DNA from: Xanthomonas cannabis pv. cannabis
GTDB lineage: Bacteria; Pseudomonadota; Gammaproteobacteria; Xanthomonadales; Xanthomonadaceae
Length of the DNA: 51,601 nt
Assembly: GCF_000802365.1 (NCBI RefSeq)
Contig: NZ_JSZE01000019.1
Coordinates: 1 to 51,601, forward strand
Direction of reading: 5' to 3'
The notes beneath the pieces are model-generated. The model had not been told where the DNA came from. It searched no databases and saw only the letters and a list, made by a program, of their open reading frames with translations. The position numbers and the translations under genes are program-made. Within the stretch, counting starts at the first letter, position 1; every line of letters begins with the position of its first letter. Below, in pieces: positions 21,764-40,539 of this stretch.

Positions 21764-23139
21764 CTGCGTCGCCGCAACGAAAGGACTTCTTCGCTTACTG
21801 GCGGAGCGGGCTGGCCGGCCTTCGCCTGCAGTCGTGGGTACGCCAACAGTCCTGGTTGCAGCGGATCTATCGCGTTTTTCCGCAGAATTGGCGTGACCGC
21901 GTTTCTTCCACACTATCCGCCCGCTCTTTGGTTCAAACGCGGTTCCAGCGCACGGATGCCTGGAAGCTGGACTCAAAAGGCGCTGACGCTCCCTTGCCGA
22001 TGAACGCTGATTTCTCCGTCACCGAGATTCCATCGGTGGGAATCAACATTGTTGGCTATCTCCGTGGCGAATTCGGGCTGGCGGAGAGTGCAAGGATGTA
22101 TGCGCGTGCGCTGATCAGCGCTGGCGTGCCCGTGTCGTTGTATGACCTGGACATGGGGCTTCCGCACTCCTGGGACGACCGGAGCCTGGATGGTCTCATC
22201 GACCAGCGCATGCCGCACCAGGTCACCGTCGTCTTCGTTAATCCCGACTACCTCGACGCCGCGTTCGAGAAGATCGGCCGGGCCCGCATGGAAGGACATT
22301 ACGTCATTGCATGCTGGTTCTGGGAACTTGAAGTGATTCCGCCAAGTTGGCTGAGTGCCATTGCACTGGTGGACGAGATCATGGTGGCCTCACGTTTCAT
22401 AGAGGATGCATTCCGCAGCGTGACCGGCAAACCGATCATGCGACTCCCGCTGCCGCTCTCTGACCAGCGTGATAGCGGCTTGCAGCGACAGGACTTCGGG
22501 CTGGATCCGGAAACCTTCGTTTTTCTTTTCACTTTTGATTTCCACTCTTTCGTGGCCAGGAAAAATCCACAGGCTGTGGTCAGTGCATTCAGGCATGCGT
22601 TTCCCGAAGGCCGCAACGACGTGCGTCTGGTCGTGAAGTCAAGCAATGGGCATATGTACCCCGAACAGATGGCAGAACTCCTGAGCCTGGTCGCGGCAGA
22701 CAAGCGGATCCTGCTGCGGGACGAGGTGATCGACAGGATGCATGTGCGCGCACTGCAGCGATGCTGTGACGTGTACGTATCGCTGCATCGGGCCGAAGGC
22801 TTCGGGTTGGGGCTTGCCGAGTGCATGTCACTCGGCAAGCCGGTCATTGCAACGGGCTGGTCGGGCAATATGGAGTTCATGACGGACAGCAACTCCTGCC
22901 TCGTAGATTACGACCTGGTGCCGGTTGCGGGCCGATATCCGGAGTCGGATGGCGCGCGCTGGGCAGAGCCGCGCATCGCATCTGCCGCAGCTGCCATGCG
23001 TCGGCTTGCGGACGACCCGTCACAGGCGCGGCGGCTGGGCGAAGCAGCCAGGGCCGATATCTGCACAAGGCTTGCTCCCCGAAGCGTAGCGGAGCATCTG
23101 CTGGCAAGGGCTGCGAACGTGGTCGCGTCAACGCACTGA
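21760..23139 (+). CDS. Family 4-type glycosyltransferase, first gene of the O-antigen island
   Basis: This 459-residue cytoplasmic glycosyltransferase has a GT-B fold. Residues ~85-110 (GINIVGYLRGEFGLAESARM) form the acceptor-side glycine-rich start seen in many O-antigen enzymes. The donor-binding C-terminal half has an EX7E motif in AEGFGLGLAEC (~345-355) and a GWSGNMEFM loop. It likely adds D-rhamnose from GDP-D-rhamnose, inferred from gmd/rmd in the same block. Its ATG lies inside the metB stop (ATGA), so it is coupled to a housekeeping gene. No signal peptide or membrane segment is seen. Confidence 0.88.
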   Translation: MTASPQRKDFFAYWRSGLAGLRLQSWVRQQSWLQRIYRVFPQNWRDRVSSTLSARSLVQTRFQRTDAWKLDSKGADAPLPMNADFSVTEIPSVGINIVGYLRGEFGLAESARMYARALISAGVPVSLYDLDMGLPHSWDDRSLDGLIDQRMPHQVTVVFVNPDYLDAAFEKIGRARMEGHYVIACWFWELEVIPPSWLSAIALVDEIMVASRFIEDAFRSVTGKPIMRLPLPLSDQRDSGLQRQDFGLDPETFVFLFTFDFHSFVARKNPQAVVSAFRHAFPEGRNDVRLVVKSSNGHMYPEQMAELLSLVAADKRILLRDEVIDRMHVRALQRCCDVYVSLHRAEGFGLGLAECMSLGKPVIATGWSGNMEFMTDSNSCLVDYDLVPVAGRYPESDGARWAEPRIASAAAAMRRLADDPSQARRLGEAARADICTRLAPRSVAEHLLARAANVVASTH

Positions 23140-23222: not shown

Positions 23223-24014
23223 TTGGATATGATCCGGTCCGTATGGGCCTTCCGATACTTCATCCTGTCGTCGATCAGGAATGACCTGCGTCTGCGCTTC
23301 CTGCGCAGCAAACTCGGTGCATTGTGGATGATCATCCACCCGCTCATGCAGGTGCTGATCTTTGCAACGATTCTTTCCGAGGTGCTGGCCGCAAAGCTGC
23401 CAGGGGTCAATAACAAGTTTGCTTACGCACTGTATCTGATGGCGGGAACGCTTTGCTGGACCCTGTTTGCCGAATGCATTGGCAAGTGTGTTTCATTGTT
23501 CGTGGATAACGGCAATTTGATGAAGAAGCAGGCCTTCCCGCGGATATGTCTCCCACTCATTGCCGGCGGCACCGTTATGGTGAACAACCTGTTGCTGTTC
23601 CTGGCAATCATCATCGTGTTCGCTATCCTGGGGCACACTTTGGGCGCGCAGGCAGCCTGGCTGCCGCTGCTGATGCTGCTGACGTTGGCTTTCGCGATGT
23701 CGATTGGATTGCTGCTCGGCGTCTTCAATGTCTTCGTGCGTGACATCGGGCAGGTTGTGCCGGTCGTTCTGCAGGCAATGTTCTGGGTGACGCCTATCGT
23801 TTACACCATCGATATCCTTCCCGCGCAGACCCAGGAACTCTTCAAGCTCAATCCCCTGTTCCCGCTTGTCAGCGCTTATCAGGGGGTACTTCTTTACGGA
23901 CGTTCCCCGGCGTGGATCGAGCTTGTCCCGCTCATGCTGGCGACCCTCGTCCTATGTGTCCTGTCCTTGGTCGTTTTTCGCCGCGCGAGTGCCGAAATGG
24001 TGGATGCCCTATGA
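23223..24014 (+). CDS. wzm: O-antigen ABC transporter permease (Wzm)
   Basis: This 263-residue inner-membrane protein has about six transmembrane helices and the ABC-2 polysaccharide-export pattern: an N-terminal RNDLRLRFLRSKLGALWMIIHPL amphipathic/elbow region and FRRASAEMVDAL at the end. With Wzt it moves undecaprenyl-linked O-polysaccharide to the periplasm. The TTG at 23223 is taken as start because AGAGG lies 8 bases upstream; an ATG at 23229 is the alternative and would drop two residues. It overlaps wzt by four bases. Confidence 0.92.
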   Translation: MDMIRSVWAFRYFILSSIRNDLRLRFLRSKLGALWMIIHPLMQVLIFATILSEVLAAKLPGVNNKFAYALYLMAGTLCWTLFAECIGKCVSLFVDNGNLMKKQAFPRICLPLIAGGTVMVNNLLLFLAIIIVFAILGHTLGAQAAWLPLLMLLTLAFAMSIGLLLGVFNVFVRDIGQVVPVVLQAMFWVTPIVYTIDILPAQTQELFKLNPLFPLVSAYQGVLLYGRSPAWIELVPLMLATLVLCVLSLVVFRRASAEMVDAL

Positions 24015-25297
24015 GCCCTGTGTTGATGGTTGAGGGGCTTGGGAAGTCCTACCGTGTCTGGGGTAGTGAGTGGCTACGCGCTGCCAACTGGTTCGGGTTG
24101 AAGGTCAAGCCGCGAGAGGAGCACTGGGTTCTGCGGAATGTCGGGTTTTCAGTCGCTCCGGGTGAGTCAATCGGGATCATGGGGCGCAATGGCGCCGGAA
24201 AGAGCACATTGCTCAAGCTGATCACCGGCACGTCGCAACCGACCGAAGGACGCATCATCCGGCATGGCCGTATCGCCGCGATTCTCGAGCTCGGCATGGG
24301 TTTCAATCCGGACCTGAGTGGCCGGGAGAATGCCAGACATTCTGCCGGGCTCATGGGTTACACATTGGAACAAATCGACAAGGTGTTGCCCGAGATACAG
24401 GAGTTTGCCGAGATCGGAGAGTATTTCGATGAGCCGGTACGCACCTACTCAAGCGGCATGCAGGTGCGCGTCGCGTTTGCGGTGGCCACCGCATTTCGGC
24501 CCGATGTGCTCATCGTCGACGAAGCATTGTCGGTGGGCGATGCGTATTTCCAGGCGAAGTGCTTCAAGCGCATCCAGTCTTACAAGGACGAGGGTATGAC
24601 GCTCATCCTGGTCAGTCACGCGGTCGGAGATGTTGTCAAACACTGCGATCGTGCCATTTTGATCAAGGACGGTAGCGTGCATGCCGATGGCCCCTCGCGT
24701 GAGGTCTCGAACCTTTATCTGGACGAGTTGTTCGGCAAGAAGCCTGCAGCGCTTCAGGCACAGGCCGATGATGCACCAGGCCAGATGCAGGCTGGGAATG
24801 AGGATATCTTTCATACGCGTCCTTACTACAATACGGGCGAGCACCGTTGGGGGCAGGGCGGAGCACGAATTCTCGATTATGTCGTTGTCAGCGGCGGCGA
24901 GGAATTTCCTGCTCGCGTAGAGAGCGGTACCAGGACGGTATTTTACGTCAAGATCGCCTTCGATCAGGATTTTGACAGTGTAGTGCCCGGGTTTTTGATT
25001 AAAACCCTCGAGGGTCTATTCCTCTATGGCACCAACTCCTTCCTTTCCAGTGGAGGGCGGGCAGGGATTTCGGTAAAAGCGGGGCAGGTAATCGTCTGCA
25101 AGTTCAGCATGCCTCTCGACCTCAATGAAGCGAACTATCTGGTCTCGCTCGGCATTTCCAGTGGTGACCCGCTTGTGGAATTGACGCCGCTGGATCGTCG
25201 TTACGACGCCATCGTGCTGAACGTCGCAAGAGGGATGCAATTCTGGGGGATGATGGACCTCAAGGCCGATTTCGAAATCGTAGAAGCGTTGTCATGA
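24011..25297 (+). CDS. wzt: O-antigen ABC transporter ATPase with carbohydrate-binding tail (Wzt)
   Basis: This 428-residue protein has an N-terminal ATPase (residues ~1-245) with Walker A GRNGAGKST (58-66), signature YSSGMQVRVA (146 onward) and Walker B DVLIVDEALSVGD. The C-terminal ~150 residues form an extra domain matching the position of the Wzt carbohydrate-binding module, which in E. coli O8/O9a recognises the capped non-reducing chain end. Long Wzt proteins of this kind go with a separate chain-terminating enzyme, and such an enzyme is the next gene. Coupled to wzm by an ATGA overlap. Confidence 0.93.
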   Translation: MSPVLMVEGLGKSYRVWGSEWLRAANWFGLKVKPREEHWVLRNVGFSVAPGESIGIMGRNGAGKSTLLKLITGTSQPTEGRIIRHGRIAAILELGMGFNPDLSGRENARHSAGLMGYTLEQIDKVLPEIQEFAEIGEYFDEPVRTYSSGMQVRVAFAVATAFRPDVLIVDEALSVGDAYFQAKCFKRIQSYKDEGMTLILVSHAVGDVVKHCDRAILIKDGSVHADGPSREVSNLYLDELFGKKPAALQAQADDAPGQMQAGNEDIFHTRPYYNTGEHRWGQGGARILDYVVVSGGEEFPARVESGTRTVFYVKIAFDQDFDSVVPGFLIKTLEGLFLYGTNSFLSSGGRAGISVKAGQVIVCKFSMPLDLNEANYLVSLGISSGDPLVELTPLDRRYDAIVLNVARGMQFWGMMDLKADFEIVEALS

Positions 25298-25336: not shown

Positions 25337-27625
25337 ATGACTGAAACAATGCATATTGGCGCGCGCGTGGCCGCTCTGCCTGAGAAATATCAGCCCATTT
25401 TCGGACACCCCGAGCTTTCGGAGGGAAGTTCGCGCGGCTGCGAAGACAGGTTCGTGCTGATTCGCGAATGTGCGCAACGTCTCCAGGGAGAGCTTGGTCG
25501 CCCGCTGCGGGTGCTGGATCTGGGCTGCGCCCAGGGATTTTTTTCCCTCAGCCTTGCGGCGGACGGACATCAGGTCCACGGTGTGGATTTTCTGGATCTC
25601 AATGTCGATGTGTGCCAGGCGTTGGCCCAGGAGCACCCGATGTTCGCTGCGTCTTTCGAGCACGGCACCGTGGAAGACGTGATCGCGCGGCTTGATCCAG
25701 ATCAGTACGACTTTGTCCTGGGGCTGAGTGTCTTCCATCATCTGGTGCATTCCCAGGGAATTGCGCGAGTGACCGGATTATGCCGCAAGCTCTCCGAAGT
25801 CACGGACGCTGGAATCTTCGAGCTGGCATTGCGGGAGGAGCCGCTGTACTGGGGGCCCTCTCTGCCGCACGACCCGGCGGAGTTGTTGACCGATTATGCT
25901 TTCACCAGATTGTTGTCGAGGCAGGCGACCCATCTGTCTTCGATTTCCAGGCCGCTGTACTTCGCCAGCAGCAAGTTCTGGTACGTGGGTGAGGCTGTCG
26001 GCAGGTTCAGTTCCTGGTCGGGCGAGGCGCATGCCTATGGACGAGGAACGCATCAGTACAGCAGGCGCTATTATTTCGGCGACAATGTGTTCGTCAAGAA
26101 GATGACGATGGGCATCGGTGGTCGCGCGGAAATCAATTGGCAGGAGTTCAATAACGAGGTCGAGTTTCTCAGAAATCCTCCTGCATCGTATCCCGTACCA
26201 AAGCTGATTGCTGCCTTGGACGATGCATCGGATTTGTTCCTCGTCAGGGAGATGGACGACGGACGCCTGCTTTCGGAGTTGATCGACGACGGCTCGCCCT
26301 ATGATCCGGATAAAGTAGTTTCTGAATTGCTTGAGCAATTGGTAATGCTCGAACGTGTAGGTCTCTATCACAATGACGTGCGTTGCTGGAATGTTCTGAT
26401 TACGCAGGACGGCAAGGCCGTTCTGATCGACTATGGCGCCATTTCTGCCGAAGCCACCGACTGCTCCTGGCTGGGCGATCTGTTGTTGTCTTTCCTAATC
26501 ACAGTCAAGGAAATCCTGCAGCGTCGCATTGTTCCGGCCAATCCCGGTCGGGAGCCGGCGCTGGACTTCATGACGCTTCCGCCGCGTTATCGCAATGCAT
26601 TCATCCAGGCATTCGGAAGTGATCAAGCGCGCTGGACGTTTGCAGAGCTCCAGGAGTGTCTAGCGCGTTCCGAATCCGTCGCGCTACATGCGCCAGAGTG
26701 GACTTCGCTTTACAGCCACATGCAACAGGCGCTGCTGAGCTACAACACACGCCTTGGGGCGCTCTATACGCAGAACGAGCATGACCGTGTTGAGCTTGCG
26801 GCACGCGCATCCTTGATTGAGCGCCTGCAAGTAGGTGCTCAGCAGGCCCAGGACAAGCTTGCAACCCTTCAGCTGGAAGCAGAGACGGCCGATAACCGCT
26901 ACCGCGATCTGGAAAAGGTGAGTAGCGAACTGCAGGAGTGGGCAAAAGATCTGGAAAAGCGCACTGCCGAAGCCGAGGACAGGGAGAAACAGCTTAACAA
27001 GGGCATGGCGGATCGGGAGGCCGAGAACGCAAGGCTAGTCTCGCAGATTTCGGTGCTCGAGTCCGAGCTGGAAGAGCGTCAACGGGTTCGTGAACTGTCG
27101 GAATTGCTTGCTGCTGACCTAAGTCGTGTGGTCGAGGAGCGCGATGGCATGCAGGTCAGCATGTCGGAGATGGAGCGCGTCAAGACGCAGCAGCAGTCAA
27201 CCATCGACGAACTGCAGGCAAGAGTTGTTTCCCTGGTTCAGCGTGTCAATAGCTCGGAGACCACCAGTGCTACCGACGCACGCAGGGTCAAGGAGCTGCA
27301 ACTGGATCTGTCCCATCGTTTGCGGGCGCTTGAGGAGGCGCGTAGCCGTATTCGTGAACTTGAGATGGCAGTGGATATCCTAGAGGGCCAGATCGGAGAG
27401 CTCCATACGAGCCGTTCATGGCGTGTGACAGCACCTCTGAGATGGGTCACCATGAGGGTGACCAAGCGTGGCGGACCTCTTGCGGCTCAGACATCGCCGC
27501 GGCTGGTGCGTACAGAGCCCGTCCTCGCTGAGGACGAGGTGGCAACACCCGCCGATGTGGCAATCGATAAGCAACTTGCAGCGCTGGACCAGCTGGGTAG
27601 CCGTATCAGGAAATCGAAGAAGTAA
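25337..27625 (+). CDS. WbdD-like O-antigen chain terminator: methyltransferase + kinase + coiled coil
   Basis: The 762-residue protein has three parts in the order of E. coli WbdD. Residues ~1-210 are a SAM methyltransferase (LDLGCAQGFFSLSLA at ~57-71, then GLSVFHHLVH). Residues ~230-450 are a protein-kinase-like domain with HNDVRCWN (His345, Asp347) and IDYGAI (Asp365). Residues ~460-690 are a long coiled coil, ending in LHTSRSWRVTAPLRW, which matches the conserved SRSWR end region of WbdD. In O8/O9a the kinase and methyltransferase cap the glycan and the coiled coil acts as a length ruler and scaffold. It lies 39 bases after wzt. Predicted role: phosphomethyl or methyl capping of a D-rhamnan chain. 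Confidence 0.88.
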   Translation: MTETMHIGARVAALPEKYQPIFGHPELSEGSSRGCEDRFVLIRECAQRLQGELGRPLRVLDLGCAQGFFSLSLAADGHQVHGVDFLDLNVDVCQALAQEHPMFAASFEHGTVEDVIARLDPDQYDFVLGLSVFHHLVHSQGIARVTGLCRKLSEVTDAGIFELALREEPLYWGPSLPHDPAELLTDYAFTRLLSRQATHLSSISRPLYFASSKFWYVGEAVGRFSSWSGEAHAYGRGTHQYSRRYYFGDNVFVKKMTMGIGGRAEINWQEFNNEVEFLRNPPASYPVPKLIAALDDASDLFLVREMDDGRLLSELIDDGSPYDPDKVVSELLEQLVMLERVGLYHNDVRCWNVLITQDGKAVLIDYGAISAEATDCSWLGDLLLSFLITVKEILQRRIVPANPGREPALDFMTLPPRYRNAFIQAFGSDQARWTFAELQECLARSESVALHAPEWTSLYSHMQQALLSYNTRLGALYTQNEHDRVELAARASLIERLQVGAQQAQDKLATLQLEAETADNRYRDLEKVSSELQEWAKDLEKRTAEAEDREKQLNKGMADREAENARLVSQISVLESELEERQRVRELSELLAADLSRVVEERDGMQVSMSEMERVKTQQQSTIDELQARVVSLVQRVNSSETTSATDARRVKELQLDLSHRLRALEEARSRIRELEMAVDILEGQIGELHTSRSWRVTAPLRWVTMRVTKRGGPLAAQTSPRLVRTEPVLAEDEVATPADVAIDKQLAALDQLGSRIRKSKK

Positions 27626-27674: not shown

Positions 27675-28736
27675 GTGAAGAGAGTTATTGTGCTTGGCGC
27701 GCAAGTGCCGTTTGTCAGAGGCGGTGCGGAGCTGCTCAATGAGGAGCTGGTCAAGCAGATCAATCTGTGGGGCAAGCAACGCCAGGTCGTCGCAGAGCTG
27801 GTGCAGTTGCCATACAAGTGGTATCCAGAAACGGAAATTCTGTCTTCCATGCTGGCATGGAGGTTGTTGAATTTGAACGAGAGCAATGGTCAGAAGATCG
27901 ACCTGTGCATCTGCACCAAGTATCCGACGTATGCGGCTTCGCATGCCAATAAGGCCCTTTGGCTCGTGCATCAGCACCGAGTGCTTTATGACCTGGAACG
28001 CACGCGTTTCGATCAGCCCCACCTGACCGCGAAGGATTCGGCGGTGCGTGATGCCCTGCGGGCCTCCGATCGCGAGCTGCTGGCGGAAATCGAGCCGCGC
28101 TACACCATTTCTCAGACGGTCACCGACCGTCTACTGCAGCACAGCGGCCTGGGTTCTGAGGTTCTCTATCCGCCGTCGAAGCTGGCGCCATTCATCACCT
28201 CGGGAGACTATGGCGATTACGTGCTGTGTATCGGTCGTCTTGAGTCGATGAAGCGTCCCGATCTGCTGATCCGGGCTGCAAAGCATGTTCCCCATGCGAA
28301 GGTGGTCATCGCCGGAACCGGTGCCAGCGAATATGCCCACTCTCTGGCACCGCTGATCCGCGAGCTGGGCCTGACGGATCGCGTCGAGCTTGCAGGTTTC
28401 GTGGAAGACGAGAAGCTGCTTGAGCTGATTGCCAACTGCCGTGCGGTCTTCTATTCGCCGGTGGATGAGGATTACGGATTTGCGACGTTGGAAAGCTTCG
28501 CCGCCTACAAGCCGGTCATTACGGTTAAGGATAGCGGCGAGGTGGGCAGGATCGTCGAGTCCACCGGTAGCGGTTGGGTCACTAGCCCTACGCCAGAGGC
28601 GATCGCTGAAAGCCTGCTTGATTGTTACGCAAAAGCACCAGCGCAACTTCGTGCATTGGCCGAGGCTGGACAGCACATGAGTACCTCCATTACCTGGGAT
28701 CGCGTGATAAGCAATCTGGTGGAGAGCCGGCTTTGA
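27675..28736 (+). CDS. Family 4 glycosyltransferase
   Basis: This 353-residue GT-B enzyme has an N-terminal VPFVRGGAELLNEEL loop, YVLCIGRLESMKRPDLLI at the start of the donor domain, and an EX7E motif in DEDYGFATLESF. The GTG start at 27675 has AAGGGG about 8 bases upstream. It is predicted to be cytoplasmic and to add a sugar to the lipid-linked O-antigen chain. The stop overlaps the next gene's TTG start by four bases, so the two glycosyltransferases are coupled. Confidence 0.88.
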   Translation: MKRVIVLGAQVPFVRGGAELLNEELVKQINLWGKQRQVVAELVQLPYKWYPETEILSSMLAWRLLNLNESNGQKIDLCICTKYPTYAASHANKALWLVHQHRVLYDLERTRFDQPHLTAKDSAVRDALRASDRELLAEIEPRYTISQTVTDRLLQHSGLGSEVLYPPSKLAPFITSGDYGDYVLCIGRLESMKRPDLLIRAAKHVPHAKVVIAGTGASEYAHSLAPLIRELGLTDRVELAGFVEDEKLLELIANCRAVFYSPVDEDYGFATLESFAAYKPVITVKDSGEVGRIVESTGSGWVTSPTPEAIAESLLDCYAKAPAQLRALAEAGQHMSTSITWDRVISNLVESRL

Positions 28737-30505
28737 GTACGCCGTTTCGCATCGCAATGGTTGGGCCGCATCCTCCGGAGCGCTCAGGCATTGCCGAGTA
28801 CACGGCAGGCCTGTCGAATTTGCTGCGCGACCAGGGCATGCAAGTCGATGCATTTACCCTGGAAGATCTTACTCGCCTCGGGGTGAGCGTCGCCGTCGGC
28901 AGATTGCTCGACGCAGATGCGATCGTTTACCAGATGGGCAACCACCCGGCGTTTCACGGCTGGATGCTGCCCTTGATGGCAGCAGCGCCGGGGATCGTGC
29001 ATTTGCATGACCTGGTATTGCATCACATGGCTGCCGGAGTGCTTAACGACGAAGGCCGGCTACTCAACGGCGACTATCTGGGTCTGCTGGAAAAGTGGTG
29101 TTCGGTCACTGATGTCCGGACCGCGAGTCTGGCGCTTCGTAGTGGATCGCCTGTCTGGAATCGGGAGGACGTGGTGCGTTTCCCGCTGCACCAAGTGGCG
29201 ACCAAGCTGGCCACCGAGGTGGTGGTGCATTCACAGTATGCGGCCGATCGCGTCAATAGAGATTTTCCCTGGCTCCCCGTCACGGTAGTGCCACAACTGT
29301 ACCCGGTCGTTGCTCCGCACCGCGTCCGCGACGGCCTTCGTACTATCGCACTATTGGGTGGTGGACAGGCCAATCGCCGCTTCGACTGGGTCGTGCAGGC
29401 ATTGGCGATGATCGACGCCGATCTGGATGAACCCATCACGCTGGAGATTGCTGGCCAGGTGGAGGAGGCCGTACTCTTACAGTTGGAAGCTCTTGCCGAC
29501 CTGCGCAACGTGCGGTTGGTCAACCACGGTCATGTCGATGATGATCAGTTCTGGAAGGTATTCGAGCGCGCGGATCTGATGATCGCGTTGCGCCAACCGA
29601 CGATGGGCGAGGCTTCGGCAGTCGTGTGCAAGGCAATGCAAGCTGGCCTTCCGAGCGTCGTATCCGATCACGGGTGGTACGCAGAACTGCCCGCTTCGGT
29701 CAGGAAACTCGCGCCGGACACGGAGTGCCCGCAGGCCCTTGCCGCATTGCTGCGCCAACTGGCACTTGACCCGGCAGCTTACGCCGCATGGGCTGAAGAG
29801 TGCTCCGATGCAGCAAGGCGGCCGGCGCTGGATCCGTATGTCGCTACCGAGCAGTATGCACGCCTGCTCAGACGGCATCGTGTCGTCTCCGATTTGAGGG
29901 ACCAGGTTGCCGATGCAGTCGTGAGCCTGAAGGTCGAAATCGACTCGCCGCTTGCCGAAGAGTTGCATCGAATCGACGTGCTGAGCAGCCTGCGTGGGGA
30001 CCGCTGGGTGAACCCAGCCCTGGCAGCATTGAATGATCAGGAACTCGATTCGCATGCGCGTGTAGTGGGAGCAACAGTGGGACCCTACCCCTACAGTGAG
30101 CCGCTGCCGGAAGAGGCCTTTCAGGGCCACGCTGCCGTTCCCGAGCAGGAGATGCTGGTTGCCCAACCATCCAGCACGGTCTCTTTGCGTGTCGAATTGA
30201 CCAACGACAGCGCATACTCCTGGTTCAGTCCGCTCGGTCACGCACTGCGCCCGTTCGGCATTTACCTCGGACACTTCTGGATTCATGCAGAAACACCGAC
30301 GGCAGTAGCCGAACAGCCCCGTCATTTTATTCACGATGCAGTCGCGCCGATGTCTTCTGCAGTCCACGATCTCACCGTCCGCGCTCCGGCAGTTCCAGGT
30401 GACTATTACCTGGAGATTGATCTAGTCCAGGAGTCGGTCTGCTGGTTCAAAAGCCGTGGCTTCTCACCGGCCCGACTTCTCATTCGAGTAGAAGCCGCTC
30501 AATAA
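28733..30505 (+). CDS. Glycosyltransferase with extra C-terminal beta-sandwich-like module
   Basis: The 590-residue protein starts at a TTG (28733) overlapping the previous stop (TTGA), with GGAG 8 bases upstream; MVGPHPPERSGIAEYTAGL is the family start. Residues ~1-400 are a GT-B glycosyltransferase (GEASAVVCKAMQAGLPSVVS in the donor domain). Residues ~480-590 are a separate module: VELTNDSAYSWF, later VRAPAVPGDYYLEIDLVQESVCWF. That module type occurs at the ends of other polysaccharide-locus glycosyltransferases, and its LVQESVxWF core also appears in the next gene. It may bind the growing chain. Predicted substrate: the D-rhamnan backbone. Confidence 0.85.
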   Translation: MSTPFRIAMVGPHPPERSGIAEYTAGLSNLLRDQGMQVDAFTLEDLTRLGVSVAVGRLLDADAIVYQMGNHPAFHGWMLPLMAAAPGIVHLHDLVLHHMAAGVLNDEGRLLNGDYLGLLEKWCSVTDVRTASLALRSGSPVWNREDVVRFPLHQVATKLATEVVVHSQYAADRVNRDFPWLPVTVVPQLYPVVAPHRVRDGLRTIALLGGGQANRRFDWVVQALAMIDADLDEPITLEIAGQVEEAVLLQLEALADLRNVRLVNHGHVDDDQFWKVFERADLMIALRQPTMGEASAVVCKAMQAGLPSVVSDHGWYAELPASVRKLAPDTECPQALAALLRQLALDPAAYAAWAEECSDAARRPALDPYVATEQYARLLRRHRVVSDLRDQVADAVVSLKVEIDSPLAEELHRIDVLSSLRGDRWVNPALAALNDQELDSHARVVGATVGPYPYSEPLPEEAFQGHAAVPEQEMLVAQPSSTVSLRVELTNDSAYSWFSPLGHALRPFGIYLGHFWIHAETPTAVAEQPRHFIHDAVAPMSSAVHDLTVRAPAVPGDYYLEIDLVQESVCWFKSRGFSPARLLIRVEAAQ

Positions 30506-30540: not shown

Positions 30541-31140
30541 ATGAAAAATAGTATGAAATCTCCTGCTTCCTTCGGTTCCATTGCCGTACTGGCAACGGTA
30601 ATCGCGTTCACTGGCTGCTCAAAGGCCCCGGAGGCAGAACAGCCAGTGAAGGCCGAGCCGCAGCAGGCTGCCCAGACCACCGAGGCTGGCGGCATGTCGA
30701 CTCCGCTGACGCAGGAGCAGGTTGGCGCACGCTACGCTATTGCCTCGGAGCCGGTGCTGGTCAATAACGGCGAACTGGTACGGATTGCGGTGTCAGTCAC
30801 CAATTCGGGCAAGGTCGCGATCAACTCCAAGGGCACACTGCCGGTCAATCTCGCCATCTCCCTGGTGGATGATTCCGGCAATTTCTCAAATCGGGACTTC
30901 CTGCGCGCTCCGCTTCCTGCTGAGGGGATTCCGGCGGGTGGTTCCGCTGAAGTGATCGCAGATGTGCCCAGCCAGGCCGTGATTGGGAAAACGCTGCGAC
31001 TCGGCCTCGTCCAGGAATCGGTGGCGTGGTTTAGCGACTTCAAGGTGGATTCGCTCGATTATGGTCCCCTCACTTCGTGCCAGGACCAGGGCAAGGAAAC
31101 GGTTTGCGGTGCAGGCGGAAAGCCTTTGGCCACGCGCTGA
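30541..31140 (+). CDS. Lipoprotein sharing a module with the upstream glycosyltransferase
   Basis: The 199-residue protein begins MKNSMKSPASFGSIAVL and has a lipobox VIAFTGC-SK, so it should be a lipoprotein anchored facing the periplasm; residues after the Cys are an Ala/Glu/Pro/Gln linker. Residues ~80-175 carry VSVTNSGKVAI and LGLVQESVAWFSDF (QESVAWF at 158-164), matching the tail module of the glycosyltransferase just upstream. Two cysteines near the end (SCQDQGKETVC) could form a disulfide. An in-frame ATG at 30505 would add 12 residues before the signal peptide and is less likely. I know of no such component in the classic O8/O9a system; its role is unknown. Confidence 0.8.
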   Translation: MKNSMKSPASFGSIAVLATVIAFTGCSKAPEAEQPVKAEPQQAAQTTEAGGMSTPLTQEQVGARYAIASEPVLVNNGELVRIAVSVTNSGKVAINSKGTLPVNLAISLVDDSGNFSNRDFLRAPLPAEGIPAGGSAEVIADVPSQAVIGKTLRLGLVQESVAWFSDFKVDSLDYGPLTSCQDQGKETVCGAGGKPLATR

Positions 31141-31199: not shown

Positions 31200-33174
<1,975 letters not shown>

Positions 33175-33320: not shown

Positions 33321-35573
33321 TCATCTCGAGCACGCGGAAGTGCATAGCTCGAAGCTGGTAAGGCCGAAGGCAAGAGGGCGCTGATCGTCTGAGATGCCGA
33401 CCTGCGAGGGCGACACGGGCACCTCGTAGCTCAGAACCACGTGCACTACTTCGCCAGGCTGATGGGGCGCTACGGGTATCCTAAGCTCCAAGGGTGATGG
33501 CTCCCCGACAGTCACGCGCTTATCCAGCGATTGGATGCCGTTGACCTTGGCACGTATACGCAGGGTTCGCTGTGAACCAGCAAGGAAGGGGTTGCCACGG
33601 AGAATCAATATCACATTACCGGCGGTTGCAGTGGTCACCCGGTAGCGCAGTGAAGATGTCATACCTACTGACCAGACGCCCCATGCCTCATCTGTTGACC
33701 AACCTTCCGCCAAGAAAGTCCGAAGTGAAGGCAATGCAATCGCGGTGTCTGCTGTAGGTTCTCCGACCAGACTTTGCCTGGCAGCTTCCGCACTTGCGGG
33801 TTTTGTACCGCCAGGCAGGCGAAAGACGACGACGGCACCATCTTCGCGAACCATCGTCGGCGGCGTACCGAGCGCTTGTTCCCACTCGGCGACGACACCG
33901 GCACCTTGGTCGACATACCCTCTTTTATCGATATAGACGGCGTCGAACCCGTAGCGACGAAGGGCATCGAGTTGCGTACTGGCAGGCCGTGTTTCGAGAT
34001 TCCGGTAAAACAGGTCGCCTTCGCGCCCCTTCATGCCGCCATAGCTCCATTTGAGCTGCCGAGAATGCACAAATCCAACAACATGGTCATACGCATTCAA
34101 CCCGTTCTTCGGTGGCACTTCCGGGAAAGCCATGTACGGCAGCTGGTAGATCGCAGCACCGGCGGGCAGGGACGCTTCGATGCTGCCGATGAAGCGCTTG
34201 TCTCGCTCATACGCACCGCGTGCTCCAGCCTGGCACTCGCCACACACCGCTGGAGTCTGGTCCCATACGCCAAAGATCAACATGACAACGGCGGCGACCG
34301 AGGCAATGGTCACGCCGTGCCGGCGTCCCAGCTTGTCGGAAAGTGTCTGTATCGCAATTGCCACCGCCGCAAGGGTACTGAACGTCAGGAAGATGCTGGC
34401 CCGATTCCAGCCGCGGATGGACGGTGAAACGACGTGTGCGAAGAGTGATCCAAGACCACCGATGGTCATGAAGGCGAACAGCACGCCGGAAAGGATTGCA
34501 AGCAGCGCGATGCGCTCTTCAGCATGGCGCTCGGCCAGCCGTGCAAACATCACCAACGCAAGAATGGCCAGGCCGAGAGAACCTATCAGGCCGAGGGAAG
34601 CAGTCCTGTTTTCATTGACCAAGGGTGTGCTGGCCATGTACTGGGCGGTCACATTGGACAATTTTGCAGACCGATGTTCCGGCTGTGGCAGGATCAACTG
34701 CATGAATTTCACGCCATACAACTCCGACTCTGCGGGTGCACGTGCGGCAACTTCCGGGTTGCGACCGTTGATCCGTTCGTTGATCACGTTTGGTGCAATG
34801 TTCGCCAGCGTTCCAAGGGCAAGGAAAAAGATCGCAGGTGCGGCGATACGTGCGATCGACGTCCAATTCCTCTGGTAAAGCGCGATCAGGCAGCTGGTTC
34901 CGATCAGGATCAGGCCAAAAACCGTGTAGTAAACGCCGAAACAGCTCAAAACAAGATAAAGCGCGGCAAGGGCGATCTTGCGCGCAGGCCGCGCACGCAG
35001 GAAATCCAGCGAAGCATCCGAGCGCGCGATACGCACGGCGATCATGAAATAGATCGGGATGCTGAAGTAGCAGGTGTAAAAAATGTGCCGAAGTCGGAGG
35101 AAATGAAAAGGCGCCAGCGTAAATAGTATGGCGGTAGCGAAGGATAATGATCGGCCGACTTGCAGCCAGCGCATCACCCAGTACGCAGTCAGAAAATTCG
35201 CAGCGAAGCCTGCAAGGAAAAACAGGTTATGCGCCACGGCATTGCTGCTGGTCAGCATGCCGGCAAGCTTCAGGAAGAGAAAACTGCCGGCATCGGCCCC
35301 GGGATAGTCAAGAAAGGATGCGCCGAAAGGAAAGCCGCTCCGATCATTCTCGAAGATCCATCCTTCCATGGCGCGTTGCGTCAGCCAGAGGCTGCTCAGG
35401 GAGTCGTCGCTGTATGAAAAAGGGTAGGCAAGAATCGAAGACAGCCCGGCACGCCAGCCGACGACCAGGACGCTGCCGGCGATGACTGACAGCACGGCGC
35501 CGAATAGTAAGGCAAGCCAATCCGTCTTCAGGAGGAGGCCGGGCCGCGTCATTTGAGAAAGTGGGGTGCTCAT
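33321..35573 (-). CDS. Large GT-C-like membrane protein, predicted periplasmic glycosyltransferase
   Basis: The 750-residue protein has about eleven transmembrane helices in its first ~450 residues and a ~300-residue soluble end. The first loop carries acidic residues (PFSYSDDSLSS), where GT-C enzymes keep their catalytic Asp/Glu, and a second conserved-looking loop FGASFLDYPGADAG. The layout matches the third, strain-specific component of Gtr-type systems. With GtrA and the GtrB-like GT2 in the same operon it would transfer a lipid-carried sugar to exported O-antigen in the periplasm. It is the last gene of the minus-strand block. I cannot assign the sugar from this sequence alone. Confidence 0.75.
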   Translation of the reverse strand: MSTPLSQMTRPGLLLKTDWLALLFGAVLSVIAGSVLVVGWRAGLSSILAYPFSYSDDSLSSLWLTQRAMEGWIFENDRSGFPFGASFLDYPGADAGSFLFLKLAGMLTSSNAVAHNLFFLAGFAANFLTAYWVMRWLQVGRSLSFATAILFTLAPFHFLRLRHIFYTCYFSIPIYFMIAVRIARSDASLDFLRARPARKIALAALYLVLSCFGVYYTVFGLILIGTSCLIALYQRNWTSIARIAAPAIFFLALGTLANIAPNVINERINGRNPEVAARAPAESELYGVKFMQLILPQPEHRSAKLSNVTAQYMASTPLVNENRTASLGLIGSLGLAILALVMFARLAERHAEERIALLAILSGVLFAFMTIGGLGSLFAHVVSPSIRGWNRASIFLTFSTLAAVAIAIQTLSDKLGRRHGVTIASVAAVVMLIFGVWDQTPAVCGECQAGARGAYERDKRFIGSIEASLPAGAAIYQLPYMAFPEVPPKNGLNAYDHVVGFVHSRQLKWSYGGMKGREGDLFYRNLETRPASTQLDALRRYGFDAVYIDKRGYVDQGAGVVAEWEQALGTPPTMVREDGAVVVFRLPGGTKPASAEAARQSLVGEPTADTAIALPSLRTFLAEGWSTDEAWGVWSVGMTSSLRYRVTTATAGNVILILRGNPFLAGSQRTLRIRAKVNGIQSLDKRVTVGEPSPLELRIPVAPHQPGEVVHVVLSYEVPVSPSQVGISDDQRPLAFGLTSFELCTSACSR

Positions 35574-35642
35574 GTAATCAACAAGTAGGAATGGGGTGCT
35601 GCTCGGTCATGCGGTGGATCGCTTTTGGCCGGATGACTCGGC

Positions 35643-36083
35643 TCAATTGCGTCCCGCACGTTGTTTGTCGCCCTGTAGCAGCAGTTTGCTCAGAACGAAT
35701 GACACGGGCAGGGTCACTGCGATGGAAATCAGCGGTCCGATTGCTGCAGGCACCCCGAGATGCCCGACGGTGAGCTTCAATGCCAACGCCCCGAGTGCAT
35801 AAGTCACGGCATAGATAAGCGGGAACGCCGCAAATTTCAGCCAGCTATGTGCAGCGCGGAAGACATACCGTGTATTTATGAGGTAGCTGAGCAGGATGCC
35901 GGCACAAAAACTCGCCAGATACGCCCATTGGTAATGAATGAAGCGCAACAATACCCAGTACAGCACGAGGGTGACGCCCGTATTGAGCGCTCCGCCTACC
36001 AGAAAACGAAGCGCAACAACGATCCACGACCGGTCCCGTCCCCGTTGGACGGAGCCGGCGGCCTTCAGCTCATCCGGCCGCAT
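35643..36083 (-). CDS. GtrA-family membrane protein (lipid-linked sugar flippase)
   Basis: This 146-residue protein has four predicted transmembrane helices and family motifs [18 protein letters not shown] and [16 protein letters not shown]. GtrA proteins are thought to flip undecaprenyl-phosphate-sugar across the inner membrane. The ATG at 36083 is chosen ([10 protein letters not shown]); it overlaps the upstream WxcM-like gene by 14 bases. An earlier in-frame start at 36149 would lie deep inside that gene. It sits 69 bases upstream of the GT-C-like gene. Confidence 0.87.
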
Positions 36084-36999
36084 TCGCCAGACTCTTGAAG
36101 TCAGCGTAGTCGCGAATGTATTCGTCTGAGTCGTAGGGCTCGGAAGCAAATACCAGAAGAACAGCGTCCTTCGAGTACTTGTATTGGGTTCCCCAGATCA
36201 TCGGCGGCAGATGGATGCCCTGGTTCGGCGAGTTGAGTTCGACGTCGATGCGGCGGGTGCCGTCATCCGCAAGGACTCTGACCGAGCCGGAGACACAGAT
36301 CAGAAACTGATGGCAGCGCTTGTGCGCGTGTTCGCCGCGGGTCTCCTGGGTGGGGACGCCATAAACCAGGAAATACCTTCTTGCATTGAAAGGCAGGAAA
36401 CTATCGAAATCTCCCACGGAGAGCGAGCCACGCATGTCGGCAAAACTGGGCATCCGGTACAGCTTGACGCCCGGAACGGCAGTGTCGGTGATTCCCTGAT
36501 CAACCGGCAATGCGGCAGGCTGGTTTGCGTCCTTGTCGGAAACGTAGCCGACAATGCGTGCGGGATTACCAACCACAATGGCATTGGGCGGCACAGAACG
36601 CGTAACGACTGCGCCAGCGCCGATCATCGCACCACTGCCGATGGTGGTGCCGGCCAGGATGGTTGCATTGGCGCCAATCGAGGCGCCCGACTCGACCACG
36701 GTGCCGAGGAATTTCTCGGGATACACCCTGCTGCGCGGGAACAGGTCGTTGGTGAACGTTGCATTCGGCCCTACGAAAACGTCGTCGCCCAAACGCACGC
36801 CGTCCCACAGTTGCACGCCGCATTTGACAGTGACCCGGTCACCTACGATGACATCGGATTCAATGAAAACGCCGTCGCAGATATTGCAATCGCGACCAAG
36901 GCGGGCGCCGGGCAGCACGTGGGCAAATGCCCAGACGCGGGTGCCTTCGCCGATGGTGTCGCTCTCGCAAAGAGCATTGGGGTGCACGAAATGACTCAC
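36070..36999 (-). CDS. WxcM-like bifunctional enzyme: sugar N-acetyltransferase + dTDP-4-keto-6-deoxyhexose 3,4-ketoisomerase
   Basis: The 309-residue protein fuses two enzymes. Residues ~1-155 are a left-handed beta-helix acyltransferase with hexapeptide repeats ([20 protein letters not shown], then [20 protein letters not shown]-type turns) and would acetylate the 3-amino group. Residues ~175-300 are a cupin of the FdtA/QdtA type with [12 protein letters not shown] (His224, His226), which shifts the keto group from C4 to C3 of the RmlB product. Together with the DegT aminotransferase in the operon this gives dTDP-3-acetamido-3,6-dideoxyhexose (Fuc3NAc or Qui3NAc). Overlaps the upstream GT2 gene by four bases. 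Confidence 0.9.
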
Positions 37000-37967
37000 G
37001 GGTTATCCTTTTCGAAGTTTTCGACCGACTGCATGATCGACAGCGGACGTGCCTTGGTATTTTCGAACGCATGCCAGGCGTATGTGCCCACGATACCCAG
37101 GCCCAATGAATTGAGTGCGCCGAAGAAGAGAATGGTCAGGATGGTCAGGGTGTAGCCCGGCACTGCGACGAGTCCGGAAAACTTCGCGGCCAGCACCAGC
37201 GCACCGAGCAGCGTGGTAAATGCAAGCGCGATCAGGCCCAGCGCCGTCAGCATGCGGACCGGCAGGTCGGTGAACGCAAAGACGCTGTCGGACAGATACC
37301 GCAGTTTCTTGCTCAGGGTCCAGGCGCTCTTGCCGTGCTGCCGCTCGCGCCGCTGGTAACTGACGAATTCGCGCTTGCCGCCCAGCCAGAACAGCTGCGC
37401 AAGCAGGCTGGAATGGGCTTCGTTCAACAGCAACAGCCGCTCGAGGAAACCACGGCTGACAGCGAAGATATCCACGCCACCCTTGGGAATGTCCTTGATG
37501 ACCATGCGTCGATAGGTTGCCCAGAACAAGGTCGACGCCAGCTTCGAGGCCGCCGGATCGCTGCGCGCTTCGCGCACGCCGAAGGCCACGTCATAGCGCT
37601 CGCTGGCGTAGCGTTGCCAGAAGTCGATGACCAGCGTTGGGGGTTCCTGCAGATCGGCGGCCATGACCGCCGTCAGCTCCCCGGAGCTGAGCTGTAGTCC
37701 GGTCCGGATCGCCGGAAATGCGCCGAAGTTGCGGGTCAGCGTTGCCAGTTGCGAACGGAACGCGCAGCCAGGCAACTTTTCGCGCAGCAGGGCGTAGCTG
37801 CGGTCCGGGCTGCCGTCCACCACGAAAACCGCTTCGAAATCCCCGGCCACGCTCCGTGCGATGAAGTCGACGGCCTGTAGCAGGTCATCGATCGAACCCT
37901 CGTTGCCATAGATCGGAACGACGAGGCTGAGAGAAGGCGATTGCACGTTGCTCAGAACCGGTTGCAT
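36996..37967 (-). CDS. GtrB-like GT2 glycosyltransferase (undecaprenyl-phosphate sugar transferase)
   Basis: This 323-residue protein has a GT-A domain at residues ~1-230 with [24 protein letters not shown] and the MAADLQEPP metal-binding region, then two C-terminal membrane helices (~235-305). This is the architecture of GtrB/ArnC/DPM1 enzymes, which move a sugar from its nucleotide to undecaprenyl phosphate at the inner face of the membrane. The likely donor is the dTDP-3-acetamido-dideoxyhexose made by its neighbours. Overlaps the DegT gene by 16 bases and the WxcM-like gene by four. Confidence 0.9.
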
Positions 37968-39055
37968 GCTTCGATGACCCGGTCGACTTCCGCGTCGGTC
38001 AGCTCGGGGAAGCAGGGCAGTGTGGTGACGCGCGCCGCATCGGCTTCCGTGTTGGGCAGTACCACTGAATCAAATGCACCCGCATGGCAGGGCTGACGGT
38101 GGTCACACAACGGGTAATGGACTTCCGTCTGCACACCGGCGGCCTGCAAGTGTGCACGCAGTTGCTCACGGTCATCGCAACGCACGACGTACAGGTGCGC
38201 CACGTTGTCAGCGCCCACCTGGCCGGCTGCTTCGATCCTGGGGTTGGACAGCCCCTGGGCGTAGCGGTTGGCGATCTCCCTGCGACGCTGGTTCCAGCCA
38301 TCCAGCAGGGGAAGCATGTACCGCAGCATGGCGGCCTGCAGCTCGTCGAGGCGACTGTTGCGGCCACCCCGCAAGCTGTTGGTGTACTTGGCTGTCCATC
38401 CGTACTGACGCAGTTGCGCAGCTCTGGCGGCCAGCTCGTCGTCGTTTGTCACGATCGCGCCGCCATCGCCCAGTGCACCCAGATTCTTGGTCGGATAAAA
38501 GCTGAAGCAAGCGATATCGCCGAAGCTGCCTGCGCGATGGCCATTTCGCTCCGCGCCGTGGGCCTGGGCGCAGTCCTCCAGGACCTTGATGCCACGCGGT
38601 TGGCAAAGCGCGACGATCGCTTCGATGTCGGCAAGTTGGCCATACAGGTGGGTCACGATGACGGCCGCTGGCGCACTGCCGCCAGCGAGCACTGCTTCCA
38701 GCGCAGGTACGGACATCAGCCCAGTGCCCGCACCTGTATCGACAAACGCCGGCGAAGCGCCACATGCCAGGACTGCGCTGGTGCCATACATCGCGGCATT
38801 CGCAACAACGGCCACCGTATCACCGGGGCCGACGCCCAACGCCTTCAGGGAGAGCTCCAGGGCGTCGGTTCCATTGGCGACGCTGACGCAATGACGGACG
38901 CCGCAGTAGCTGGCGAACTCCTGCTCAAAGGCCTTCACGTTCGGACCGAGCACATAGTAGCCACTTGCGACAATAGTGCTTGCGATCTCAGACAGGGCAT
39001 CCTGTACGGGCGCGATGTGGCGGGACAACGAGTTGACGGGAATCAGAGCGTCCAT
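37952..39055 (-). CDS. DegT/DnrJ/EryC1 sugar aminotransferase (FdtB-like)
   Basis: This 367-residue PLP-dependent enzyme would add an amino group at C3 of the dTDP-3-keto-6-deoxyhexose. Features: NGTDALELSLKALGVGPGD, EDCAQAHGAERNG, and the PLP-binding Lys190 in FSFYPTKNLGALGDGG, followed by SRLDELQAAML. The ATG at 39055 gives the family start (IPVNSLSRHIAPVQDALSEI); the frame stays open to 39268 but without conserved residues. It is the first gene of the five-gene minus-strand block, which probably starts from a promoter in the 539-base gap upstream. Confidence 0.92.
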   Translation of the reverse strand: MDALIPVNSLSRHIAPVQDALSEIASTIVASGYYVLGPNVKAFEQEFASYCGVRHCVSVANGTDALELSLKALGVGPGDTVAVVANAAMYGTSAVLACGASPAFVDTGAGTGLMSVPALEAVLAGGSAPAAVIVTHLYGQLADIEAIVALCQPRGIKVLEDCAQAHGAERNGHRAGSFGDIACFSFYPTKNLGALGDGGAIVTNDDELAARAAQLRQYGWTAKYTNSLRGGRNSRLDELQAAMLRYMLPLLDGWNQRRREIANRYAQGLSNPRIEAAGQVGADNVAHLYVVRCDDREQLRAHLQAAGVQTEVHYPLCDHRQPCHAGAFDSVVLPNTEADAARVTTLPCFPELTDAEVDRVIEACNRF

Positions 39056-39494
39056 GGAATCCGAGGTATCAAGTGAAGTGTGGATGGATTTGAAATGCTG
39101 CGGCAGCAATGCACGGCCGAGAAGTCTTTGAGCAGAAGGATATCGCGTTCGACCGCTGGTCAGCGGGCGGGCCTGGCCCAGGCGAACGATTGGGGGAGCC
39201 GACCTAAATTGTTTGGTATGGCGCCGGACTTTCGGTGCAGCGCAGGATGTTTGAACCAGCACAAGCATCGGCCCCGCAATCGGTGCCGGCAGTGCATGGG
39301 CAGCGCTAGCTGCCAGATCCGCCTCCTTGCAGCTCGGTCTATCGCGTATCCGTCTTCATTCGCAGCACCCGGATTTGCCGATGCACCCGTTCCGGCGACG
39401 AGAGGCGACACAGAGCTGACGACCTTCAACCCACGTGCCGCCGGAACCTCGAAGCTCTGCAAGGGCATCTACGGTATCCCGATAAGTGATGCCA

Positions 39495-39594: not shown

Positions 39595-40539
39595 TCAGCT
39601 CAACGCCTGTTCCAGCTCCGGCAACAGCGTGAACAAATCCCCCACCAACCCGATATCGGCAATCTCGAAGATCGGCGACTCCGGGTCCTTGTTGATCGCC
39701 ACGATCGTGCCGGCGTCCTTGATGCCGGTCAGATGCTGGATCGCCCCGCTGATGCCGATTGCCACGTAGAGCTCGGGGGCGATGATCTTGCCGGTCTGGC
39801 CGACCTGCAGCTCGTTGGGCACGTAGCCAGCGTCCACTGCGGCGCGCGAGGCGCCCACGGCGGCGCCGAGTTTGTCGGCCAGGCTGTAGATGTGCTGGAA
39901 GTTTTCCGCCGAACCGACGCCGCGGCCGCCGGAGACCACGCGCTTGGCGCTCTGCAGGTCCGGGCGATCGGAGCTGCCTGCGGCCAGGCCGACGAAGCGG
40001 CTGTGGGTCGGCAGCGTGGCGTCAACCGAGACGGATTCGACCGCCGCACTTCCGCCCTTGGCGGCCTCCGGCCACGACGCGCTACGAATGGTCGCAACCA
40101 CGATCTGGTCGGCCGGGGCCTTGACGGTGATGATGGCGTTGCCCGCATAGATCGGACGCTTGAAGGTATACGCGTCTTCGACAGTCATCAGATCGGAGAT
40201 CTGGTTGACGCCCAGCAATGCCGCCACGACCGGCATCAGATCCTTGCCAAAGGTGGTGGAGGGGCCGAAGACATGGGTGTAGCCCTGACCCGCCAGTTGG
40301 GCGATCTGCGGTCCCAGCACCTGCGCGATGGCGTGTTCGTTGGCCGCGTTGGCCACGGTCAATACACGCGCGACGCCGGCCAGCTGCGCGGCCTGTGCGG
40401 CAACGCCTGCTGGGTCGGCGGCCAGCACGACCACATCAATGGATTCGGCCGAGATCGCCTGTGCGGCGCTCAGTGTCTTGGCGGTGGCCGCATTGAGCTG
40501 GCCGTTGAGATGTTCGGCAACGATGAGAACCTTGGCCAT
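39595..40539 (-). CDS. etfA: Electron transfer flavoprotein alpha subunit
   Basis: This 314-residue alpha subunit binds FAD and passes electrons from acyl-CoA and other dehydrogenases to the quinone pool. The C-terminal FAD domain shows VSGGRGVGSAENFQHIY, AAVDAGYVPNELQVGQTGK and PELYVAIGISGAIQH, all family signatures. It overlaps the etfB stop by one base (TAATG on the minus strand). In Xanthomonas this gene is the conserved right border of the O-antigen locus. Confidence 0.97.
   Translation of the reverse strand: MAKVLIVAEHLNGQLNAATAKTLSAAQAISAESIDVVVLAADPAGVAAQAAQLAGVARVLTVANAANEHAIAQVLGPQIAQLAGQGYTHVFGPSTTFGKDLMPVVAALLGVNQISDLMTVEDAYTFKRPIYAGNAIITVKAPADQIVVATIRSASWPEAAKGGSAAVESVSVDATLPTHSRFVGLAAGSSDRPDLQSAKRVVSGGRGVGSAENFQHIYSLADKLGAAVGASRAAVDAGYVPNELQVGQTGKIIAPELYVAIGISGAIQHLTGIKDAGTIVAINKDPESPIFEIADIGLVGDLFTLLPELEQALS

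Follow-up and report, generated by a model that had tools for sequence, protein, structure and literature searches.

The window analysed here, 51,601 nt of Xanthomonas cannabis pv. cannabis (NZ_JSZE01000019.1, positions 1-51,601, forward strand), contains at 30541-31140 (+) wxcE, an open reading frame (ORF) for a 199-aa lipoprotein within the Xanthomonas lipopolysaccharide (LPS) cluster. Residues ~55-174 of this protein are, as judged from sequence profiles, homologous across the full domain to the C-terminal module of WxcD, the GT4-type glycosyltransferase encoded upstream (28733-30505, +). WxcE is the product of a known but misannotated gene, whose role would be backbone-specific rather than general, and the data suggest, short of proof, that related domains grip the sugar chain on both sides of its export from the cytoplasm. 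The leading idea, which we favour tentatively, is that the lipid-anchored WxcE domain holds the exported rhamnan backbone of the O-antigen in the periplasm. It starts from what we observed, namely the lipoprotein signal, the homology of the modules, their fold class and the co-occurrence with WxcD, and from these we infer backbone binding, the steps served and the anchoring membrane.

The original prediction knew of no lipoprotein in the described Wzm/Wzt/WbdD systems; the gene itself has been described, being wxcE of the known wxc cluster (PMC12573098, PMC9040725; published work is quoted here and below from excerpts of the papers). Indeed, the gene order of the window equals that published for X. 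hortorum pv. vitians, wxcA-wzm-wzt-wxcB-wxcC-wxcD-wxcE-gmd-rmd followed by wxcO to wxcK (PMC12573098, PMC9040725), and by position the lipoprotein is therefore WxcE. Size agrees with order, on which two features the identity rests: the gene lies between wxcD and gmd and encodes a protein of ~20 kDa with predicted export, and the WxcE of Xcc, also exported and in the same wxcD/gmd position, is reported at 20,490 Da against 20,461 Da for that of the window. The cluster itself was reportedly described by Vorholter et al. 2001. One transposon screen tabulates WxcE as a glycosyltransferase (PMC12573098), a label that is hereby corrected; it is elsewhere given as an exported protein (PMC2438364) or simply listed, and no account of it as a lipoprotein, as Ig-like or as kin of the WxcD C-terminus was found in the excerpted literature that names wxcE.

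WxcE shows what defines a bacterial lipoprotein in sequence terms, a signal peptide with a lipobox ending in Cys (30541-30615, +; lipobox FTGC; MKNSMKSPASFGSIAVLATVIAFTG cleaved before C26), with the codon of the predicted lipidation residue Cys26 at 30616-30618. The clean lipobox and its reading frame are located as the original prediction had them; the call was made with a PROSITE-type pattern. After cleavage, the mature protein would have 174 aa, 17.95 kDa and a pI of 4.8. It begins with a flexible linker rich in Pro, Ala and Gln (30619-30702, +), of low predicted confidence (mean pLDDT 53, 49 and 73 in the first three ten-residue blocks), followed by the immunoglobulin (Ig)-like module (30703-31062, +) with its signature LVQESVAWF (residues 156-164; 31006-31032, +) and by a tail with two cysteines, C180 and C189 (31078-31107, +), which may form a disulfide. 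All 28 family lipoproteins listed, a Rhodanobacter copy included, have a lipobox; 22 of them carry the tail cysteine pair, as do two fusion proteins (L062, L063), and the tail of the WxcD module is without it.

The kinship of the two modules was first proposed from a motif pair, TNSGKVAI and LVQESVAWF in WxcE and TNDSAYSW and LVQESVCWF in WxcD, and both pairs are where they were said to be. A two-sequence BLASTP of the proteins returns a 13-residue match alone (E 0.004 for that one comparison), so the motif by itself is thin evidence and profiles were needed. With hhalign, a WxcE-only profile (19 rows) aligns with a WxcD-only profile (6 rows) over 119 columns, with a probability of 94.7% and an E of 5.9e-8, and with a profile of 18 diverse modules at 99.5% and E 1.7e-22. 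As a negative control, the same WxcE profile against the Wzt_C domain of the same operon gave a probability of 0.1% (E 0.5), and a second Wzt_C comparison 0.4% (E 0.15). Moreover, when 7880 ORFs were searched with a 20-module profile, WxcE was retrieved at E 3.5e-15, with none of 1220 shuffled decoys matching; the profile was built from 11 WxcD-type modules and nine others, including a lipoprotein from Desulfuromonadales and a domain taken from a polytopic protein (genome G099), and excludes the Xanthomonadaceae lipoproteins and the Xanthomonas fusions. A stricter profile, of 11 WxcD-type modules and one other, reaches WxcE at only E 0.008; the link between WxcE and WxcD thus depends on intermediates. 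One such intermediate is a Nitrospirae lipoprotein that was retrieved with the WxcE query and whose top BLASTP match in the window is WxcD (33% identity over 126 residues; phmmer E 2e-16 against the WxcD module). In the whole genome of the strain, the WxcE-only profile at E <= 1e-4 matches only WxcE itself and the WxcD C-terminus (E 3.7e-5). The alignments, for which rows more than 92% alike were omitted from the sequence list, show conserved N, R, E and W residues within the modules.

Both modules are confidently modelled by AF2, with a mean pLDDT of 88.3 for that of WxcD and 89.2 for mature WxcE, where blocks of the domain core reach 96-98. Each model is a beta-sandwich in which the LVQES-V-WF strand leads into a short helix, and WxcE has extra strands in its tail. 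In Foldseek both retrieve Ig-like domains, the FW domain of ILRUN standing within the first seven rows of each and that of NBR1 also being among the nearest solved folds. The modules are thus Ig-like according to these models and probably of FW type, and the two regions, whose kinship would have been called into question by different folds, fall in the same predicted class. The Pfam family N_BRCA1_IG (PF16158) is matched by 6 of the 18 diverse modules at E <= 0.01 (best 4.2e-6) and weakly by 2 of 27 modules of another set; in a further Pfam comparison the matches of relatives lay below the gathering score. The modules of the window have no Pfam match themselves, nor has WxcE any match in Pfam or NCBIfam, and a PDB sequence search with the profiles gave nothing convincing.

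Related as they are, the two modules are not copies of one another made recently. In the tree, where WxcD is represented by three orthologues with the row of the window left out, WxcE groups with domains of polytopic GT-C-like proteins (G099; 99/98) and is set apart from WxcD (98/100) by a branch of 1.41 changes per site; the node joining the lipoproteins with the Xanthomonas fusion domains has 86/87 and is not starred. A recent duplication is rejected by this position and by the long branch, and in sequence terms WxcE and WxcD carry modules that are old relatives, WxcE being at the same time tied to polytopic GT-C-like proteins. The idea of one module shared by both proteins accordingly holds as regards a homologous full-length domain, a common predicted fold class and a linkage to one particular backbone, and falls as regards a single module recently copied.

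In Xanthomonas the distribution of WxcE follows that of WxcD. Among 395 genomes sampled for the family, 37 had a match: lipoproteins in 13 Xanthomonas genomes and in 14 genomes of other genera (for one of which, G248, with a stop within the matched stretch, the longest open piece alone was used), three Xanthomonas fusions, and seven modules in other proteins or weak matches; a further WxcE lipoprotein was found in a Rhodanobacter metagenome-assembled genome (MAG). Within Xanthomonas (n=35), the WxcD module and WxcE occur together in 13 genomes and both are missing from 22, three of which carry the domain fused to a polytopic protein. The copies in the twelve other Xanthomonas genomes are 56-96% identical to that of the window, the nearest named genomes being X. 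arboricola, X. euroxanthea and X. hortorum (94-96% and 83%). In X. hortorum pv. cynarae (L033/L005), wxcE looks mosaic, its first part resembling the window copy and its second part another type (L008/L009). Surveyed across similar loci, then, the lipoprotein is present in 13 of 35 Xanthomonas genomes, in 14 others of the 395 and in the Rhodanobacter MAG, and is missing from one Xanthomonas locus of Wzm/Wzt/WbdD type, that of G377.

This last genome constitutes a natural swap. There, glycosyltransferases of 1039 and 838 aa stand in place of wxcA and wxcC-D-E. The locus retains wzm (74%), wzt (70%), wxcB (about 50%), gmd and rmd as well as a complete wxcO-K cassette (WxcO is 76% identical), and neither the module nor a lipobox ORF was found in this stretch. 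A similar replacement has been described for Xav 85-10 (PMC2585010, PMC2238763). Since G377 keeps Wzm, Wzt, WxcB and WxcO without WxcE, WxcE as such seems dispensable for ABC export and for WxcO alike, and a general Wzm/Wzt factor, one of the candidates considered, is rejected on the same grounds. Furthermore, the downstream branch cassettes are of two types, and WxcE goes with WxcD and not with the cassette. WxcE therefore seems to accompany one type of backbone, rather than export or branching in general. Closely related Xanthomonas genomes carry one or the other cassette between rmd and etfA (window 33321-39268) although their backbone genes remain similar, and rmd varies with the cassette type, at about 60% or 82% identity.

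Published phenotypes bear on the same question. In lettuce, wxcA-wxcE were all critical and wxcK-wxcO were not (PMC9040725), which, polarity on gmd aside, places wxcE with the backbone genes. Insertions in wxcE confer resistance to phage PhiXhv-1, with a log2 fold change of 9.19 against 9.27 for gmd and 9.19 for wxcO (PMC12573098). In Xcc B100, loss of wxcB leaves no O-antigen, and loss of wxcK or wxcN removes FucNAc with a seemingly longer rhamnan (PMC4878081).

Taken as a sequence of events, the preferred reading would run as follows. WxcA, WxcC and WxcD would make the rhamnan backbone, the related module on WxcD holding the growing chain in the cytoplasm, and Wzm/Wzt would export it. WxcE, exported in turn and lipidated on Cys26, would display its Ig-like domain on the flexible linker in the periplasm, grip the exported rhamnan and keep the undecaprenyl-linked chain placed for branching by WxcO and for ligation to the core. 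The same backbone could then be checked twice by one domain family, on WxcD in the cytoplasm and, after ABC export, on the enzyme-free WxcE in the periplasm as a dedicated post-export chain holder, an extension that is possible and yet rather doubtful. To our knowledge, the described Wzm/Wzt/WbdD models contain no such post-export chain-holder lipoprotein, and little is settled about how undecaprenyl-linked O-polysaccharide is handled once ABC export is over and before it is ligated or branched. WxcE would be a tangible candidate for such a factor that holds chains in the periplasm, its module being kin to that of a chain-building enzyme with which the lipoprotein comes and goes.

Several observations weigh against the periplasmic chain holder. 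An Ig-like fold is common, so that the fold match says little of function, and mere linkage could account for part of the co-occurrence of WxcD and WxcE. The gap between wxcE and gmd is of 74 bp, a scan of it for promoters and terminators gave no promoter-like site while performing at chance level, and gmd itself is critical, so the effects of wxcE insertions could be polarity on gmd. Moreover, three Xanthomonas genomes (L061-L063) and G099 encode polytopic proteins that end in a fused WxcE-type domain, and in two loci (L058, L060) the lipoprotein gene stands directly after a gene for a polytopic GT-C-like protein, with a GtrA and a GT2 gene upstream. GT-C-like proteins, a designation inferred from size and hydropathy and counted here as at least 7 hydrophobic segments with a soluble C-terminal tail of at least 100 aa, are present at 11 of the 12 lipoprotein loci of Xanthomonas and at 7 of the 14 from elsewhere, but in just 1 of 20 controls, the latter being arbitrary chromosome stretches and not LPS loci; the fusion loci (4 of 4) qualify by construction.

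These same facts, together with a GtrA-type gene that in 25 of 31 genomes lies no more than 6 kb from the gene for the WxcE homologue or the fusion, often accompanied by a GT2 gene and one for a polytopic protein, would be expected if WxcE were the detached subunit of a branch-adding GT-C enzyme, WxcO or its counterpart, presenting the acceptor chain for branching only; the phage resistance conferred by wxcE insertions points the same way, as wxcK-O are likewise required by that phage (PMC12573098). We consider this unlikely. G377 has WxcO and the whole cassette without WxcE, the sequence of WxcE is independent of the branch type, and wxcA-wxcE are critical in planta where wxcK-wxcO are not (PMC9040725). 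Half of the non-Xanthomonas loci (7 of 14) show no GT-C-like protein in the stretch, and once the tail criterion is dropped (350-950 aa, at least 7 segments) half of the controls (10 of 20) have such a protein too, the lipoprotein loci then scoring 11 of 12 in Xanthomonas and 8 of 14 in the others. In addition, the fused polytopic proteins L062, L069 and L039 have no glycosyltransferase match in Pfam; the cyanobacterial L036 matched PMT_2; and the even number of segments (10) given by the hydropathy count for L061 and L063 leaves unsettled on which side of the membrane the fused domain lies. Both lines of evidence, that of the backbone and that of the GT-C proteins, would meet if the ligand of the domain were the backbone, for a branching enzyme would then need the domain, fused or free, to find its acceptor.

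Rather improbable too is a module that docks proteins and does not contact sugar, by which WxcE would recruit or steady a periplasmic partner such as the permease, the ligase or a GT-C enzyme. It would fit the NBR1 and ILRUN FW domains among the nearest folds, the N_BRCA1_IG matches of the diverse modules and the binding of the protein Ams1 by the Nbr1 FW domain (PMC9233695). A fold match is silent on the ligand, however, and the module is mostly found in the company of enzymes that act on sugar chains, which a common sugar ligand explains more simply. Least probable by far is that WxcE, as a lipoprotein of the outer membrane or the cell surface, shares the operon by chance of position and takes no part in O-antigen assembly. 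Its detection in Xcc outer membranes had a low score (ESI-MS/MS 26) and was made in a fraction that contains inner-membrane fragments according to its authors (PMC2438364 Table 2), and Asp at +2 is found in only 2 of the 28 family lipoproteins; against this stand the presence of WxcD in 13 of 13 Xanthomonas carriers, the location of the family genes in or near LPS loci, the module shared with WxcD, and the cost of insertions in phage sensitivity and in planta fitness (PMC12573098, PMC9040725), for which polarity on gmd is a possible cause.

Among known systems, a close parallel to a chain-holding WxcE is the C-terminal carbohydrate-binding module (CBM) of Citrobacter youngae O1 ORF12 (GT136, GT-C), a periplasmic Ig-fold domain in a WbdD/Wzt-type O-antigen system that binds the unbranched O-polysaccharide and whose deletion left the activity (PMC11127046). 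WxcE-like domains likewise occur at the C-termini of polytopic proteins. The CBM belongs to its enzyme, whereas WxcE is a lipoprotein in its own right; the two are set side by side here from descriptions. Periplasmic O-antigen glycosylation by GtrABC or GmlABC is similar in that a GtrA-type gene, in many cases together with genes for a GT2 and a polytopic protein, lies near the WxcE homologues. It differs in that three components are described, the word lipoprotein being absent from the text (PMC11127046). The FW domain of NBR1 and ILRUN (PF16158) is among the nearest solved folds to the modelled modules, and Wzt_C (PF14524) has no sequence relation to it that the profile comparisons could see. 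From a broader perspective, the family suggests how polytopic sugar-transferring enzymes may gain or lose a chain-binding domain, fused in some species and free and lipid-anchored in others.

As for the genomic context, wxcE lies in the LPS cluster between flanks that we name, from the sequences and printed locus descriptions, metB (20564-21763) and etfA/etfB (39595-41285). On the plus strand follow the glycosyltransferase gene wxcA (21760-23139), the ABC-2 permease gene wzm (23223-24014), wzt (24011-25297, start codon inferred; Wzt_C carbohydrate-binding domain at 24839-25261), wxcB (25337-27625), a WbdD-like methyltransferase/kinase with a coiled-coil-like C-terminal part, whose likeness to WbdD is stated in PMC4878081, the GT4 gene wxcC (27675-28736), and wxcD with its predicted Ig-like module at residues 457-590 (30101-30502, +). 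Downstream of wxcE come gmd (31215-32252, +) and the ORF of rmd (32236-33174, +), and then, on the minus strand, wxcO (33321-35573), the polytopic GT-C-like member of the branch cassette, so classed from hydropathy and size only, and wxcN (35643-36149), a candidate GtrA-type flippase (PF04138, E 5.5e-20), beyond which genes matching wxcM, wxcL and wxcK follow in order. The names wxcA, wxcB, wxcC, rmd, wxcO and wxcN were given from gene order. In another locus (L041, G017) the wxcB frame is split.

Outside the family, matches in the samples searched were few. In the class sample (Gammaproteobacteria) the WxcE profile matches one of 320 other genomes, G551, whose 282-aa frame was rejected as a lipoprotein for want of a signal peptide by eye; in the phylum sample the module profile matches 2 of 348 other genomes at 1e-5, and nothing in the phage and plasmid collections reached E <= 0.01. 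At greater distance, the module occurs in lipoproteins of two MAGs, from Nitrospirae and Desulfuromonadales, and in polytopic proteins of cyanobacteria, one of them PMT-like. In the Desulfuromonadales locus, which has Wzt-like and WbdD-like genes in the stretch, the lipoprotein adjoins a GT2 protein bearing the module, and the two modules are sisters in the tree (85/88, not starred), so the pairing of lipoprotein and glycosyltransferase modules may have arisen repeatedly. Judging from sequence matches, the family recurs in O-antigen machinery at the C-terminal end of enzymes that modify sugars or chains. Large RHS/YD-repeat-like proteins of Xanthomonas (L095, L096 and L097, by eye), which lie outside the LPS stretches examined, carry two modules on the N-terminal side, and the domain type is thus not confined to O-antigen work. 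Small proteins consisting mostly of the module, with no evident signal peptide, stand in distant Proteobacteria beside very long glycosyltransferase-like or unassigned genes (L098, L099). Two further proteins (L105, L107), in genomes that also carry a WxcE-like lipoprotein, combine a sulfotransferase-like N-terminus (by eye) with Wzt_C and a C-terminal module, and the cyanobacterial PMT-like protein L036 ends in two modules in tandem.
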